Of a DNA stretch of 64,000 nucleotides, positions 8,860 to 64,000 are shown in pieces. The stretch covers positions 806,001 through 870,000 of the forward strand of contig NZ_CP030041.1 of assembly GCF_003260975.1 (NCBI RefSeq), given 5' to 3'. The notes beneath the pieces were generated by a model. The model saw only the letters and a list, made by a program, of their open reading frames with translations. It was not told where the DNA came from and did no database searches. The DNA is from Echinicola strongylocentroti (GTDB taxonomy: Bacteria > Bacteroidota > Bacteroidia > Cytophagales > Cyclobacteriaceae). Within the stretch, counting starts at the first letter, position 1; the number at the start of each line of letters is the position of its first letter. A program made the position numbers and the translations under genes.

Positions 8860-9441
8860 ATGGACACCCTTATCAATGATATAGCACTTAAAATCAAGGA
8901 CAATGACAAAAATGCTTTTTATGAGCTCTATCAATTATTCCATGAAAGGATCTACCTTTTTTGTATCCATTATGGTCTAAAGGCCGTGGATGCAGAAGAA
9001 ATCACACAGGATGTATTCGTAAAACTATGGACCGCTAGGCAGAAAATTGATCCTACAAAATGCCTTAAAGCCTATTTGTTTACCATTGCAAAAAATACCA
9101 TGCTGGATATGTTCAAAAAACAAATCAGGCAAAAAGCTACCAGAACTTACCAAATGCAACTTATACTCCCGGTAAACACCACCCAAAACACCTTGGAATA
9201 CAATGAATTGATGGGATTGGTAGAAAAAACCCTTACCTGCCTGCCCGAAAGGCGGAGGAGGGTATTCGAAATGTCCCGGTTACAGGGACTTTCCCATAAA
9301 GAAATTGCTGCCCAATTGGGCATCTCCACCAAAACGGTCGAAAATCACCTGACCCTGGCACTACAAAACTTCCGAGAGGTATTTCAAGATGCCCAAATTA
9401 TGTCATTGGCCCTACTGACCCTTTCCCTATCCTATTCTTGA
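8860..9441 (+). CDS. ECF RNA polymerase sigma-70 factor (locus 1)
   Basis: A 193-residue ECF sigma factor of the Bacteroidota SusC-linked type. Sigma region 2 lies at about residues 20-95 (ELYQLFHERIYLFC, EEITQDVFVKLW, KAYLFTIAKNTMLDMFKK). Region 4 lies at about 125-175 (LPERRRRVFEMSRLQGLSHKEIAAQLGIS, then KTVENHL), with the recognition helix at the end. A short hydrophobic tail AQIMSLALLTLSLSYS is odd for the family. A TTG three bases upstream (8857) directly precedes the ATG and could also start the protein; the ATG is preferred. Its likely targets are the divergent fecR/susC/susD/DUF1080 genes. No promoter motif could be identified with confidence in the shared region. Confidence 0.94.
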   Translation: MDTLINDIALKIKDNDKNAFYELYQLFHERIYLFCIHYGLKAVDAEEITQDVFVKLWTARQKIDPTKCLKAYLFTIAKNTMLDMFKKQIRQKATRTYQMQLILPVNTTQNTLEYNELMGLVEKTLTCLPERRRRVFEMSRLQGLSHKEIAAQLGISTKTVENHLTLALQNFREVFQDAQIMSLALLTLSLSYS

Positions 9442-13902: not shown

Positions 13903-16900
13903 TTAAAAGGTTACATTCACTCCGAACCGTACTGTTCTGCTGAGCGGGTAGCTATTATAACTCACCTTGGAAACATTACTTGCTCCCGAGGCACTGGCAT
14001 CTGGGTCAAACCCTTCAAAATCGGTTATGGTCAATAAATTGTCCCCAGCCACATAAGCATTAACGTTGCTAAACACCTTGTTTCCTTTGAGTGGAAAATT
14101 ATACCCCAATGTTACCGTCTTCAGTCGGAAAAACGATGCATCTTTTACTGTCATCGAATTGATCACAAAGTCCCCTCCATAGGCAGTAGGGTTTACACCA
14201 CTTGGATACTCATTAGTGGGGTTTTCTGGTGTCCATCTGTTAAGAAGGTATTCGGAGATACGGTTTCTGTATTCGTTAGTGGGATATAATGATTCGGTTA
14301 CATTGGCATCCAGTGTCTGTATCCCATTCACCCATTGCATAAAAACATCCAGTGACCAGTTTTTATAATTCAAGGTATTGCTAAACCCTAACGTAAAGTC
14401 AGGAAAAGGATCCCCCAGCACTACCCTATCCTCTAAATCTATCGCTCCATCATTGTTTTGGTCCTTGAACTTTATATGTCCAGGAGCTGCATTTGGCTGG
14501 GCAGAGTTTTCTATATCATCATCTAACTGGAAAATCCCTTCCGTCTCAAAACCGTAAAATGAGCGCATTGCCACTCCTTCACGAACTAGTAAAAAGTTAT
14601 TAATGAAGGTCCCTATATTACCTGAAATGATTTCAGGAATAAAATCGGGCAACTCGGTCACCTCATTCTTCAACAGTGAAAAATTAAGCGTAGAACTCCA
14701 TTTGAAATCATTGTTTTGGATATTGACTGAATTCAGCATAAAATCAATTCCTGAATTTTTGGCAGATCCGAAGTTCACCAAAATATTGGTAAAGCCTACC
14801 ACCGACGGAATGGGCTTACTGAAAATCTGGTCTTTGGTCGTTCGGATATAATAATCGATGGACCCGTGTACCCGGTCATTGGCGAAACCAAAATCAAGGC
14901 CAAAATTAATCTCTTCGGTAGTTTCCCATTTTAAGTTTGGATTGGGCAACCGTGCCGGAACTACCCCTTGATAAATAGCATCTCCAAAAACGGCACTTCC
15001 ACCAGCTACCAATGTCTGGATCGTACTGAAATTGGGCACTCCCTGATTCCCAAGCTGACCATACCCTAGCCGCAACTTTGCCGTACTCATCGTGTTGGCT
15101 ATTGGCTTAAAGAAGGGTTCGTCAGTAATCCTCCAAGCAAAAGCCCCTGAAGGGAATATTCCGTACTTATTAGTGTCAGAAAACCTGGATGTACCATCTG
15201 CCCTGATGGAAGCTGTAAACAAATATTTACCTTTCAAATCATAATTTACACGCCCCAAAAAGCCATTGAGACGGTTCCTGTTTCGAGACGAGCTCACATC
15301 GTCTCCATTGTCTCCATCTCCACTTTGGAGTAAGTCAGCAAAGGTCACATCGGACAAGAAATCCCTTGAACTGGCATTGACCCCTACCGTTAGAAATTCT
15401 TCAAAAGTGGCCCCTGCCATTAAGTTCAAATGATGGTCTTCATTGAATTGCTTATCGTATTTCACCAAAAACTCGGCTAGCCACTGCACATAATCGGATG
15501 AATTTCTGGACCCGATCCCTCCATTGCTCCGACCGTTTAAGGTGGATCGATCTCTGTAATTGGAAGTCATTCCTGTGGCATTTGTCCCACCCAGTCTTAC
15601 TGAACCAACTAAGCCTTTTATCGGCTCAAATTCCGTAGAAAATGTCCCATAAAACCGACTATCTAGGTTTTCCTGTGTTACACCATTGATCAGTGCCTGT
15701 GGATTGTCCAATGCGATAAAGTCATTGAGGTAATACCGGCCACTTCCATCAAGTCCTGCTGGTAAAGTAGGATCAAATTGAATGGCAGAATTAATGGGAC
15801 CCGCATTTTCGTTTGCAGCATTTGAAAACAGAATGGCATTTTGAGTCGACCTAGTATAGTTGATATTGAACTTGAACCTCAAAAACTCCTTTGGCCTAAA
15901 GTCCAAATTGGTCCGTAAGTTCAGCTTTTTAAAGTTGGAGTTTTTCACTAACCCCTCTTGGTTAAAGTAGTTTAATCCAGCATAATAGGTGCTTTTCTCA
16001 GAACCTCCAGACATGCTGATTTGGTGGTTTTGCACTGGTGCGCGATCATTGAAAATCACATCCTGCCAGTTGGTTCCCTCTCCCATTTGTGAGACTTCGT
16101 CTTGTGTATAGATCGGGTCTCCTCCACCTTCTTCACGAATGGCATTTAATGTCTCCATGTATTGCCGGCCGTTGAGTACATCTATCCTTTTTGCCACCGA
16201 CTGCACACCATAATAGGCATTGTATTTAAGGACAGGATCACCTTTTTTGCCACTCTTGGTGGTGATCAGCACCACTCCATTTGCAGCTCTGGTACCATAG
16301 ATGGCAGCAGAGGATGCATCCTTGAGCACTTCAATAGAAGCGATATCATCTGGTGATAGGTCAGACGGATTGATTCCCGGGAGACCATCCACTACGATCA
16401 GCGCATCGTTATCTCCGTTGATTGATCCTGCCCCTCTTATTTGGATTTTTGTTTGGGCGCCGGGAGCAGAATTTGGTTGACTGATATTGACACCTGCTGC
16501 TCTACCATTGAGCAATTGTAGGGCATTGGAATTGGCCCCTTGGGTAAAATTATCTTCGCTCAAAGACACTACCGCCCCAGTGAGGTCACTCTTTTTTTGC
16601 ACGCCATATCCCACGACCACCACCTCATTCAGTCCACTTAGGATTTCTTGCATGACCACATTGACCTCTGTCCGGTTTCCCACGGTTTCACGCGCTGTTT
16701 CATAGCCTATAAATGAAAACTCCAGCACAGCATCTCCATTTTCTACTTCTATCTGATAGCCTCCGTCAATGTCCGTAACGGTACCTTTTTGGGTGCCGAT
16801 TATGCGTACATTGACCCCTGGAACTCCTGCAGGCTCTGCTGGTGAAGTTACTTTCCCCCTCACCATTATCGCTGCATCATCAGGAGATATGGGCCTCTGT

Positions 16901-60877: not shown

Positions 60878-61237
60878 ACAAGGGGGGATTTAGTATCTGG
60901 TATGTAGTATTTAGTATTTGGTATTTGGTATATGGTATATGGTATTTCTTGTAGTGGGGTTTTACGGTAACCTCAGTGACTGCCTCCAGCTACCTGCATC
61001 TTCTACCTTCAAACATTAAAACCTCCAACCTTAAACCCGGAATATGCATTAGCCTATCTACGCCACGGCGCACAGGTGTTGCGACCTTAAACTGCTTCAA
61101 AATCAGCCGTTTCACTTTAGTTTTCGGCATAACCGTAGCGGTGCTACGCTAATGCCTCCAAACTAACTGATTTTCTTGCAATTTCAGCTCTCACTACGAT
61201 TCCTAACGTATAATCCGGGTTAAACCCTTTCCAACGA
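60878..61237. repeat. Gene-free region with simple repeat and element A copy 4
   Basis: A GGTATTT/AGTATTT heptamer array (60889-60948) is followed by inverted element A (61032-61224), which ends 13 bases before the ggt stop. No terminator is obvious. Confidence 0.8.
61032..61224 (-). mobile_element. Element A copy 4 (MITE-like, inverted, both ends intact)
   Basis: Begins TTAAACCCGGAATATGCATT and ends ATAATCCGGGTTAAAC, so both CCCGG-containing ends are present. Compared with copy 3 it has an extra ~18 bases (ACGCCACGGCGCACAGGT) near the left end, itself partly palindromic. Confidence 0.8.
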
Positions 61238-62986
61238 TCAAAAACCTGCTGCCCAGTCATCGCCTCGTGGGTCACTGGCTCCTTCCAGCTTGCCATCTTG
61301 GCCTACCAATATGGCGTCCACTCGGCCTATACTTCCTCTTTCCTTGATTTGGTGGCCCATGGCTTCCAGTGCCTTTTGTGTAGAAGGATCAAGGGCGTCT
61401 CTTTCGGGAAAAATAAAATTGGGCTTCCACTGGTGGTGAACCCGGCCAGATGATACTGCATCGGTCATGTTCATCTCGTGATCCAATACGTTCAGGACTA
61501 CCTGGTATACGGAAGTGATGATCGTACTTCCCCCCGGTGTGCCCACTACCATTTTCAGTTGACCGTCCTTTTCCACGATGGTCGGTGTCATGGCACTGAG
61601 CATGCGTTTTTCGGGTTGGATGGCATTGGCTTTGCCGCCCAATAGCCCGTACACATTGGGAACGCCAGGCTTGCTGCTGAAATCATCCATTTCATTGTTC
61701 ATCAAAAATCCCGCCCCGGATACGAACACCTTGGAGCCATAGCCTGAGTTGATGGTGGTCGTAACAGACACGGCATGACCGCTAGCATCTACGATAGAGT
61801 AATGGGTCGTTTCCTCACTTTCTTGATGGTCTAGCTCCATGGCAAGGACCTTCTCACTGTCCGTAGCCATAGCTGGGTCGATCTGGGCTACACGTTCGGC
61901 AATGTATGCTTCATCCAGCAGTTCCTCTTTTGGCACATCCCAAAAATCAGCATCCCCCAAGTGTTTTGCCCGATCGGCATAGACCCGTCGCTCCATCTCT
62001 ATCATCAGGTGAATCGTCTCTGGCGTATGGAAACCCAACTCACCGATGGGAAAGTGCTCCGACATTTTCAACAATTGCATCAACGCAATGCCTCCACTGC
62101 TCGGTGGCCCCATGCTGTAAATGGTCGCTTCCCTGTATTTACCAGTGACAGGCTCCCGCCACTTCGCTTCGTATTTGGCCATATCTTCCAGTTGGATAAT
62201 GCCATTGCCCGCTTGCATCTCCGCAACCAATAGCTCTGCCGTCTTGCCTTTATAAAACCCGTCCCGTCCTTCTTTCTGGATACGTTTGATCGTAGCAGCC
62301 AGGTCTTTTTGGACCAAAAGCTCACCTTCCTGCCATTCCCCGTCGAGTTTTACCAAAGGAATCGTCGTACTGTCACGATTGTGTTCGATAAACCTTTTTC
62401 GATTTCTGTTGTAATTATTGGCCTGCTTTGCCGTAATGGGAAACCCGCTACGGGCAAGTTTATAGGCTGGCTGCAACAATGCTTTCAGCGGTAAGGAGCC
62501 GTATCTCGCATGCGCAGTGAGCATACCGTCCACTGATCCGGGTACACCCGAAGCCATAGGGCCTGCCAAGCTCAACCCATCGATGATATCACCATTTTCG
62601 TCTTGGTACATTTCCTCGTAAGCGGCCATCGGTGCCTTCTCGCGAAAGTCAAGTGACACCACTTCGCCGCCCGGCTGGCGGTACATCATAAATCCGCCGC
62701 CGCCCAAGTTACCCGCAGCAGGATAGACCACGGCCAGTGCAAAATGAACGGCCACCATCGCATCAATGGCATTTCCACCTTTCTCCAACACCTCCACTCC
62801 CACTCTTGTGGCCTCCGGATGGGCAGACACCACCATGGCCTTGTCTCCATGGACGGTTTTGCCTTCCAGGTATTCCTTTTGGCTTATTTTGGCACAACCA
62901 GAAATGTATGCCAAGGCAATAAATAGGGCGATGAATCGAATGGAAATTTGCTTGCCAGAAAGCCGCTGTATCAATGTGAATTTCAT
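61238..62986 (-). CDS. ggt: Gamma-glutamyltransferase (glutathione hydrolase), lipoprotein
   Basis: Cleaves or transfers the gamma-glutamyl group of glutathione and related peptides outside the cytoplasm. It has 582 residues with lipobox ISGC (Cys31). It is self-processed: the autocatalytic site reads EETTHYSIVDASG, and by comparison with the E. coli enzyme Thr393 becomes the N-terminal nucleophile of the small subunit. GNAIDAMVAVHFALAVVYP, GNLGGGGFM (about 93-100), SLDFREKAPM (about 111) and PPSSGGIALMQLL (about 294) are typical. The frame extends to 63043, but the ATG at 62986 gives the lipoprotein signal. Confidence 0.95.
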   Translation of the reverse strand: MKFTLIQRLSGKQISIRFIALFIALAYISGCAKISQKEYLEGKTVHGDKAMVVSAHPEATRVGVEVLEKGGNAIDAMVAVHFALAVVYPAAGNLGGGGFMMYRQPGGEVVSLDFREKAPMAAYEEMYQDENGDIIDGLSLAGPMASGVPGSVDGMLTAHARYGSLPLKALLQPAYKLARSGFPITAKQANNYNRNRKRFIEHNRDSTTIPLVKLDGEWQEGELLVQKDLAATIKRIQKEGRDGFYKGKTAELLVAEMQAGNGIIQLEDMAKYEAKWREPVTGKYREATIYSMGPPSSGGIALMQLLKMSEHFPIGELGFHTPETIHLMIEMERRVYADRAKHLGDADFWDVPKEELLDEAYIAERVAQIDPAMATDSEKVLAMELDHQESEETTHYSIVDASGHAVSVTTTINSGYGSKVFVSGAGFLMNNEMDDFSSKPGVPNVYGLLGGKANAIQPEKRMLSAMTPTIVEKDGQLKMVVGTPGGSTIITSVYQVVLNVLDHEMNMTDAVSSGRVHHQWKPNFIFPERDALDPSTQKALEAMGHQIKERGSIGRVDAILVGQDGKLEGASDPRGDDWAAGF

Positions 62987-63125
62987 AATGGGATATGCAA
63001 TAATATTATTAAATGAATGCAACTTACTAATTAAGTCAATCAATGGGTATCCTACCTCCGCACAAAGTACAAAATATCTGATTTTTTAGGAATTATGTAT
63101 TACCACTGGTCAAAGAATAGATAAA

Positions 63126-63145
63126 AATAGGGATCAACCCCTATT
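63126..63145 (-). terminator. Hairpin with T run toward minus strand, upstream of ggt
   Basis: AATAGGG / CCCTATT with a 6-base loop; on the minus strand it is followed by TTTT. It would stop transcription coming leftward from the tracrRNA side before ggt. Confidence 0.55.
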
Positions 63146-63152
63146 ATTAGTC

Positions 63153-63180
63153 AAAAAATACTCCGTTTTGGGTATTTTTT
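63153..63180. terminator. AT-rich bidirectional hairpin upstream of ggt
   Basis: AAAAAATAC / GTATTTTTT pair perfectly with a 10-base loop that can add CC/GG pairs. The A and T runs make it a plausible terminator on both strands. It lies between ggt and the CRISPR locus. Confidence 0.55.
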
Positions 63181-63326
63181 AATAAAACCAAAACCATTAT
63201 TTTGAGGGTGAATAAAAAGAAAAGACTATAACTTCACAAAAAATGCAAATCAAACATACATTATCCAGCCGTTCCCTTCATTCTATTTTTCGTCAATTTT
63301 CTTATCAGATACTATCAAAACTCAAT

Positions 63327-63400
63327 AAAAAAATCCCACGGAGTACGCAGGATTGAGAATTTCTTCGGCTTATAGCCTTGTTGTGAATTGTCTTTCAGTC
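63327..63400 (-). ncRNA. Predicted tracrRNA of the type II CRISPR-Cas system, divergent from cas9
   Basis: Reading the minus strand: the anti-repeat CTGAAAGACAATTCACAAC (63380-63398) is complementary, with one bulged base, to a repeat beginning GTTGTGAATTGCTTTCAG. From memory, GTTGTGnnTTGCTTTC is how many Bacteroidota type II-C repeats begin. Then AAGGCTATAAGCCGAAG contains the nexus stem GGCT/AGCC (63367-63377). Then comes the terminator stem AATCCTGCG / CGTGGGATT (63346-63354 with 63332-63340), 9 bp with two G-U pairs, followed by a run of seven T (63327-63333). This is the canonical order anti-repeat, nexus, terminator. The 5' end is not known and may reach 63410; TATATTTA at 63403-63410 (minus strand) is a possible -7 box. 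It should pair with crRNA and bind Cas9. Confidence 0.82.
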
Positions 63401-63426
63401 GGTAAATATAGAAAAAATTAAAGGAA

Positions 63427-64000
63427 ATGAATAAAATTTTAGGAATTGATTTAGGAACAAACTCTATTGGGCTTACCTTAAGAGAAGATGATATTTTCTC
63501 TTGGTATGGAGTATATACTTTTAAAAAAGGGGTTGGTGAAGGAAAATCTGGAGAATTTTCATTTGCTGCCGAGCGAACCAAACATCGTTCTTCTCGAAGA
63601 TTGTACAATGCCCGTAGGTATCGAAAATGGGAAACCTTAAAAGTTTTGATTGAAAATGGATATTGTCCGCTAGATATTGAAAACCTCAATAAATGGATAA
63701 ATTACGAAAAAGGAATTGGCCGTATTTTCCCAATAGATGATATAACTTTTCAGCAATGGATTAAATTGGATTTTGACCGAGACGGTAAACCTGACTTTAC
63801 CAGCCCTTATCAATTGAGAAGATTCCTGATTCGAGAAAAATTGGACTTGTCAGTTTCCGAAAATCGACACAAAATAGGCAGGGCACTTTATCACATTGCC
63901 CAAAGACGCGGTTTTAAAAGCAGTAGAAAGCAAGGTGCAAACGAAAAAACAGCTGTTTATAAAGGAAGCAATGAAACTAAAACAATTGGGAGAAATGAAT
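63427..64000 (+). CDS. cas9: CRISPR-associated endonuclease Cas9 (type II-C-like), N-terminal part; runs off the window
   Basis: RNA-guided DNA endonuclease; only the first 191 residues are inside the window, with the frame open to the edge. The RuvC-I motif GIDLGTNSIG (6-15) holds the catalytic Asp8. The arginine-rich bridge helix spans about 49-72 (RTKHRSSRRLYNARRYRKW). The start of the REC lobe, GRALYHIAQRRGFKSSRK (151-168), matches the conserved segment of type II-C Cas9. The start ATG is preceded by AAAGGA. The HNH and PAM-interacting regions lie outside. A predicted tracrRNA is divergent in its leader. The gene is visibly more AT-rich than its neighbours, as expected of a horizontally gained locus. 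cas1, cas2 and the array should lie to the right. Confidence 0.95.
   Translation, partial: MNKILGIDLGTNSIGLTLREDDIFSWYGVYTFKKGVGEGKSGEFSFAAERTKHRSSRRLYNARRYRKWETLKVLIENGYCPLDIENLNKWINYEKGIGRIFPIDDITFQQWIKLDFDRDGKPDFTSPYQLRRFLIREKLDLSVSENRHKIGRALYHIAQRRGFKSSRKQGANEKTAVYKGSNETKTIGRNE

Follow-up and report, generated by a model that had tools for sequence, protein, structure and literature searches.

The window analyzed here, a 64,000-nt stretch of the Echinicola strongylocentroti genome, very probably encodes near its right end the tracrRNA of a Bacteroidota type II-C CRISPR-Cas system: a leftward RNA of ~70 nt that seems to have arrived together with cas9 as a 4.45-kb cassette replacing a resident tracrRNA-cas9 pair, and whose cas9 now carries a stop at codon 479. 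As the window ends 574 bases into cas9 (63427..64000, plus strand), which runs on to L002:5630, we examined 12 kb of the same genome around the gene (locus L002; window position = L002 position + 61999), alongside loci L037, L166 and L167 of genomes G003, G005 and G006 and a relic, L170, in G010. The predicted tracrRNA (63327..63398, minus strand, ~72 nt) is made up of an anti-repeat, a nexus hairpin and a terminator, which sequence and folds place on the strand, in the order and at the positions given in the original prediction. The anti-repeat CTGAAAGACAATTCACAAC (63380..63398, minus strand), 28 nt from the start of cas9, pairs with repeat positions 1-18 and leaves one bulged A (the complement of T63391). 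It is followed by the nexus hairpin GGCT-ATA-AGCC (63367..63377, minus strand; 4-bp stem GGCT/AGCC), which folds within the conserved AAGGCTATAAGCCGAAG, and by a Rho-independent terminator (63327..63354, minus strand) with a 9-bp stem, a 5-nt loop and a T7 run (stem 63354-63332 and T7 63333-63327, with 2 of the 7 T counted in the stem too), a plan repeated in an alignment of 28 other loci. The shortness of the RNA and its single hairpin ahead of the terminator, to which attention had been drawn at the outset, are real but normal, because 86 loci with non-identical upstream regions (E. strongylocentroti included) have the same plan; in these, the median distance from nexus start to the end of the T-run is 56 nt, and the nexus reads AAGGCTATAAGCCG in 40/86 and AAGGCTATATGCCG in 36/86 (E. 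strongylocentroti included). In the mechanism we propose, transcription would proceed leftward from a promoter overlapping the start of cas9, and the RNA would begin at its anti-repeat, base-pair with each 46-nt repeat over its first 18 nt, presumably be processed and loaded into Cas9, to which it would present its single nexus hairpin, and end at the terminator.

The anti-repeat proved legible enough in the raw sequence to foretell the repeat of an array lying 5.7 kb to the right of the cas9 start. A search to the right of base 64000, as had been suggested, finds the predicted repeats at L002:7143-8707 (minus strand), and the proposed opening, GTTGTGAATTGCTTTCAG, is exact in all 21 perfect repeats right of the window (18/18 letters); T63391, whose counterpart in the repeat had been doubted, is indeed missing there and supplies the bulged base of the duplex. 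The repeat reads GTTGTGAATTGCTTTCAGAATTATACCTTGCAATGGTAATCACAGC in crRNA sense (46 nt), and the anti-repeat pairs 18/18 repeat positions around that one bulged base. Co-folding repeat and anti-repeat, also advised beforehand, gives -43.6 kcal/mol, with 11 bp, the bulged A and 7 bp.

Across the whole 6.25-Mb genome, an exact pattern with 0-2 free bases finds the 21 repeats and a single anti-repeat site, leaving no better anti-repeat elsewhere, whereas a better one in the locus is what the original prediction had named as counting against itself; the reversed control gives 0 matches. Within 3 edits of the 18 nt there is no second site on either strand of the 64 kb, the next sites appearing from 4 edits. 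We additionally trained a covariance model on the tracrRNAs of 28 other loci, with the E. strongylocentroti sequence left out; these training loci were picked by eye from 73, all having nexus AAGGCTATAAGCCG or one close to it, and L073 and L093, which have the same nexus, were left out. On the window this model gives a sole match up to E 10 (63399-63322; 93.6 bits, E 9.7e-24), third in score among 35 sources after two training-set loci, and in a run on 11 genomes of the genus, with 150 of 2314 first-look candidates scored, it gives one match in the E. strongylocentroti genome at E <= 0.1. Rfam at gathering score has 0 matches in the window; up to E 5, six sub-threshold matches fall within 62900-64000, none of them usable, and the phenylalanine leader that Rfam lays over the tracrRNA reaches 22.6 bits vs. 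55 required.

Using the first 478 residues of Cas9 as query, we retrieved loci from 17/295 family genomes (E <= 1e-40, E. strongylocentroti included), of which 15 hold an array; in 13 of these 15 the divergent strand bears an anti-repeat and then a nexus no more than 60 nt to the left of cas9, found among the four best local alignments in 12 cases and by eye in L041. A wider contig scan added 80 of at least 506 confirmed relatives, mostly, with a few exceptions, Bacteroidota by title, for a total of 97 loci. The duplicates among them (2/97; L053, which is the Marivirga arenosa locus G212, of L036, and L116 of L050) were left out, as were L048 (short upstream contig) and L045 (variant nexus), and L084, identical to L083, was left out of the promoter counts. 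By pattern search, a divergent-strand nexus motif lies <=600 nt from cas9 in 87/97 loci and is absent from L050, L051, L117, L120, L121 and L127 (six distinct loci) as well as the duplicate L116; the covariance model, run on 35 sources that exclude L120 and L121, still gives tracrRNA-like matches of 42.9-54.5 bits in L050, L051, L117 and L127.

Anti-repeats also track repeats: across 53 loci with both array and tracrRNA, repeat and own anti-repeat pair at a mean duplex energy of -23.0 kcal/mol vs. a mean of -13.5 kcal/mol (sd 0.71) for permuted partners, with 0/10,000 permutations as low, these permutations keeping the relatedness of the loci. In just 16/53 loci does no other anti-repeat pair better than the own one, and the E. 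strongylocentroti repeat pairs at lower energy with the anti-repeats of L081, L037, L076, L055 and L052 than with its own. Of the 87 duplexes, 47 are marked by an internal UU/UU loop, and 10, including that of the window, by a bulged A over a lower stem of 11 bp. A further 10 consist of a 12-bp anti-repeat alone, 9 combine loop and bulge, 2 lack a bulge and 9 take some other form; duplexes without a bulge are on record for Mollicutes in the portion of PMC6882279 available to us. The window tracrRNA is of a known and ordinary kind, since the motif occurs in 87/97 loci, anti-repeats track repeats, and similar tracrRNAs have been published for Riemerella and Flavobacterium. As far as the accessible text of PMC5006608 goes, type II-C CRISPR1 of Riemerella anatipestifer likewise has an anti-repeat upstream of cas9 and cas9, cas1 and cas2 by the array, but its own anti-repeat is a 16-nt TGAAAGCAATTCACAA and its repeats are 47 bp, whereas here the anti-repeat has an extra base (the bulged A), the whole tracrRNA is described, and cas9 is interrupted. 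In the type II-C systems of Neisseria, Campylobacter and F. columnare, going by the available passages of PMC8092290 and PMC12080349, the tracrRNA base-pairs with the beginning of the repeat, as here, and the array is read toward the leader from repeat promoters; here, in contrast, the repeats are 46 nt long and the promoter boxes are of the Bacteroidota type. PMC8092290, in those passages, calls the F. columnare tracrRNA putative.

The evidence for a cassette comes from comparison with other genomes. By blastn, E. strongylocentroti and its congener G005 are 81.6% identical over 61225-63228, have no match at E <= 1e-5 from 63229 through tracrRNA and cas9, and match again at 92.1% over 67684-68917 (cas1-cas2). 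The putative swapped-in tracrRNA-cas9 cassette would thus occupy 63229..64000 of the window, with its left edge at 63228/63229 and its right edge beyond the window at ~67683, just before cas1. Protein identities are mismatched between E. strongylocentroti and G005 (Cas1 97%, Cas9 29%) and between G003 and G006 (Cas1 99%, Cas9 31%); the corresponding values are 87% and 85% for G005 vs. G006, 71% and 78% for E. strongylocentroti vs. G212 (Marivirga), and 86% and 59% for E. strongylocentroti vs. the congener G003, so that E. strongylocentroti Cas9 is closer to that of Marivirga. Left of its new tracrRNA, G003 still carries the earlier tracrRNA and a short stub of the earlier cas9, and it matches G006 at 90.8% up to the stub and at 96.2% again from cas1. 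Together, the breakpoints and the mismatch of Cas1 and Cas9 identities point to the tracrRNA-cas9 pair having been replaced twice, with different edges. In E. strongylocentroti, tracrRNA and cas9 seem to form a 4.45-kb cassette that replaced an older pair while cas1, cas2 and the array stayed; G003 is, to judge by its alignments, a separate swap with different edges, its direction shown by the retained stub. For E. strongylocentroti we infer both the direction of the swap and its mechanism, recombination.

The new anti-repeat fits the resident repeat. The 46-nt repeat is identical in G005 and E. strongylocentroti, and along it the G005 tracrRNA reaches positions 2-20 and the E. strongylocentroti tracrRNA positions 1-18; spacers common to E. 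strongylocentroti, G003, G005 and G006 were not found in any of the six comparisons. We lean toward the view that a divergent tracrRNA and cas9 form an exchangeable effector cassette of Bacteroidota II-C systems, one exchanged at least twice in this genus (in E. strongylocentroti and G003) while cas1, cas2 and the array stayed in place, since the opening 17-18 nt of the repeat fit either tracrRNA; resident spacer memory would so pass to a Cas9 that shares only ~30% identity with its predecessor and may have a different PAM, and the three 95-nt hairpin-insert repeats of G003, with different 30-nt spacers between them, suggest that Cas1-Cas2 can copy double-length repeats. That Cas9 and its dual RNA coevolve, and that the loci are transferred horizontally, is known (PMC3936727, in the part available). 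The Fp1/Fp2Cas9 loci of F. psychrophilum resemble the present one in having the tracrRNA beside cas9 and in the exchange of cas9 within a standing II-C locus; the accessible text of PMC10309648 has no mention of a tracrRNA moving with the exchanged cas9 and states that tracrRNA transcription was not revealed. Our literature search of open-licence PMC text, mostly by listing, returned no paper on joint tracrRNA-cas9 swaps. The double swap, with the stub kept in G003, allows one to test whether a new Cas9 uses spacers gathered with the old, and it is the cassette swap and the long repeats (below) that a specialist might follow.

The two tracrRNAs of G003, one per cas9 type, lie ~750 nt apart (L037:14816-14896 and 14069-14146, both plus strand). 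To the left of the window tracrRNA lies a gamma-glutamyltransferase gene (61238..63043, minus strand; Pfam PF01019), copies of whose 5' part flank the CRISPR-cas locus (L002:720-1095 and 8873-9243), the duplicated segments being 278 nt at 87% and 65 nt at 74% (repeats D3 and D4); G005 has a matched copy left of cas9 only.

The locus consists of cas9, cas1 (type II, TIGR03639), cas2 (TIGR01573) and the array, with no further open reading frame of >=90 aa between cas9 and the array except reverse-strand overlaps, and hence no csn2 or cas4 in this interval; this gene set and repeats with ~30-nt spacers are those of subtype II-C. Its cas1 is the sole one of the genome, and its cas9 is the only one above the curated cut-off, the other match (19.7 bits) falling far below. 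Of the type II hallmarks, RuvC and HNH domains are present, whereas the cas9 frame is not uninterrupted: its 1400 codons contain a single in-frame TAA at codon 479 (L002:2862-2864; window coordinate 64861-64863). We take GIDLGTNS at Cas9 residue 6 to be the RuvC-I motif. Both parts of cas9 match TIGR01865, with HNH_4 and RuvC_III matched in the second, and cas9 is intact in relatives.

Given this in-frame stop, the tracrRNA may serve a broken enzyme: the system may be newly broken, or rescued in some unseen way, or one base may have been misread. It is accordingly a substantial possibility, though one we rate somewhat short of probable, that the tracrRNA is a relic, with cas9 a fresh pseudogene and the RNA perhaps still made but serving no working nuclease, a reading to which both the TAA and the lack of a second cas9 above the curated cut-off in this genome lend weight. 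On the other side, the 921 codons past the stop form an open frame conserved to nearly the same degree as the part before it (77.5% vs. 79.2% identity to G212), the tracrRNA, cas1, cas2 and the 21 perfect repeats are free of decay, and, with one strain only to go by, the stop could stem from a sequencing error at one base or from a mixed population.

On the tracrRNA strand, a promoter -7-like box, TATATTTA (63403..63410, minus strand), has 5/6 of the fixed letters of TAnnTTTG, with ATT rather than TTG 19 nt upstream. From its position we place the 5' end of the tracrRNA near 63398 and its probable length at ~70 nt, which narrows the 75-110 nt suggested earlier. A perfect TAnnTTTG occurs on the tracrRNA strand 12-60 nt before the nexus in 60/86 loci (the window not among them), vs. 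5.4 expected from mononucleotide shuffles and 2/86 on the other strand, and in 27/62 occurrences the box is preceded by TTG, at 19 nt in 17 and at 20 nt in 10. The available text of PMC10309648 gives TTG, 19-20 nt and TAnnTTTG as the Bacteroidota promoter form. The common box and nexus suggest how Bacteroidota tracrRNAs start, and should ease finding them where Rfam gave no match.

For cas9 itself, there is no TAnnTTTG box on the plus strand within 300 nt in the window, and such a box lies within 300 nt in 22/86 loci vs. 12 expected, so we make no firm claim of a common cas9 promoter. These counts bear on whether the tracrRNA also regulates cas9 in cis, with cas9 transcripts that start left of the anti-repeat carrying a repeat-like stretch in perfect pairing with it: the missing box would accord with this, as would the mere 28 nt between anti-repeat and cas9, room that the tracrRNA promoter is expected to fill. 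Against it, no conserved cas9 promoter was found that places a start left of the tracrRNA, and we rate such regulation unlikely. That the hairpins are instead a plus-strand cis element of the cas9 leader, with no minus-strand RNA, has their position upstream of cas9 in its favor and is scarcely credible, as the T-run, anti-repeat polarity, promoter boxes and conserved nexus all belong to the minus strand, and repeat and anti-repeat agree.

Boxes of the TAnnTTTG kind are also found within repeats themselves. Among 54 distinct repeats (L056, L058 and L072 were left out, their repeats not being CRISPR repeats of this kind), 23 have a box with 5-6/6 letters at repeat positions 16-38, vs. 7.5 expected, and 13 of these 23 boxes are at position 24, 19 nt past a TTG at positions 2-4. 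As the reverse strand has such a box in 7/54 and the E. strongylocentroti repeat itself reaches 4/6 letters at best, we treat the repeat box as a lead only. Promoters within repeats are proposed for F. psychrophilum in PMC10309648, and none was found in repeats in the Riemerella paper (PMC5006608), so far as the available parts of both go. Box and TTG occur mainly in 46/47-nt repeats, as though each repeat carried a Bacteroidota promoter.

The E. strongylocentroti array consists of one altered terminal repeat and the 21 perfect 46-nt repeats, with spacers of 29-30 nt that match none of 50,697 phage records. The altered repeat (L002:8738-8832), at the end far from cas2, bears a 49-nt insert directly after the tracrRNA-pairing part that lengthens it to 95 nt. 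G003 has, besides its three 95-nt repeats, a decayed fourth; G005 and G006 each have one long repeat at the same array end, and the G010 relic has no array. Inserts were detected in 5/57 arrays scanned (L002, L037, L047, L060 and L070): long repeats alternate with short ones in L060 (101, 101 and 104 nt) and in L047 (two of 55 nt, the normal repeat being 36 nt), and the inserts of L047, L060 and L070 differ in sequence from that of the Echinicola loci. All are hairpin-bearing, mid-repeat and located toward the array 5' end in crRNA sense; the II-C rule makes this the old end, farthest from the leader, and for L060 and L070 presumably so. According to the accessible part of Feussner et al. (PMC12080349), in which the word 'insertion' occurs once, about cloning, II-C arrays often have mutations in their oldest repeat, and for about a quarter of the systems an explanation for the suppression of extraneous crRNA is lacking. 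The long-repeat inserts may act in such suppression, or may have been copied by Cas1-Cas2. Our search of open-licence PMC text, again mostly by listing, found no report of hairpin inserts within the repeats of II-C systems.

Several other accounts of the inserts were considered and set aside. The inserts do not behave as dispersed mobile elements: the Echinicola pattern occurs in 4/390 family genomes, all of this genus and all at array ends (the G010 relic being too decayed for the pattern), and the L060/L070 motif occurs in the arrays of those loci only (3 and 1 copies). A kinship, in opposite orientation, between the E. strongylocentroti insert and the L060 and L070 inserts was matched by shuffles as good in 12/1000 (L060 third), 36/1000 (L070) and 360/1000 (L060 first) cases, which is too weak for us to call them one family. 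The odd repeat units of L050 and L079 are truncations rather than inserts.

Across the four long repeats of G003 (L037), one insert base alternates G/A/G/A, and AAGT reads AATT in the long repeat nearest the leader. At the leader end, by the first E. strongylocentroti repeat (L002:7105-7145), AGCATACC...GGTAT and the adjoining GCT of the repeat form a hairpin reaching into the repeat, as they do in G005.
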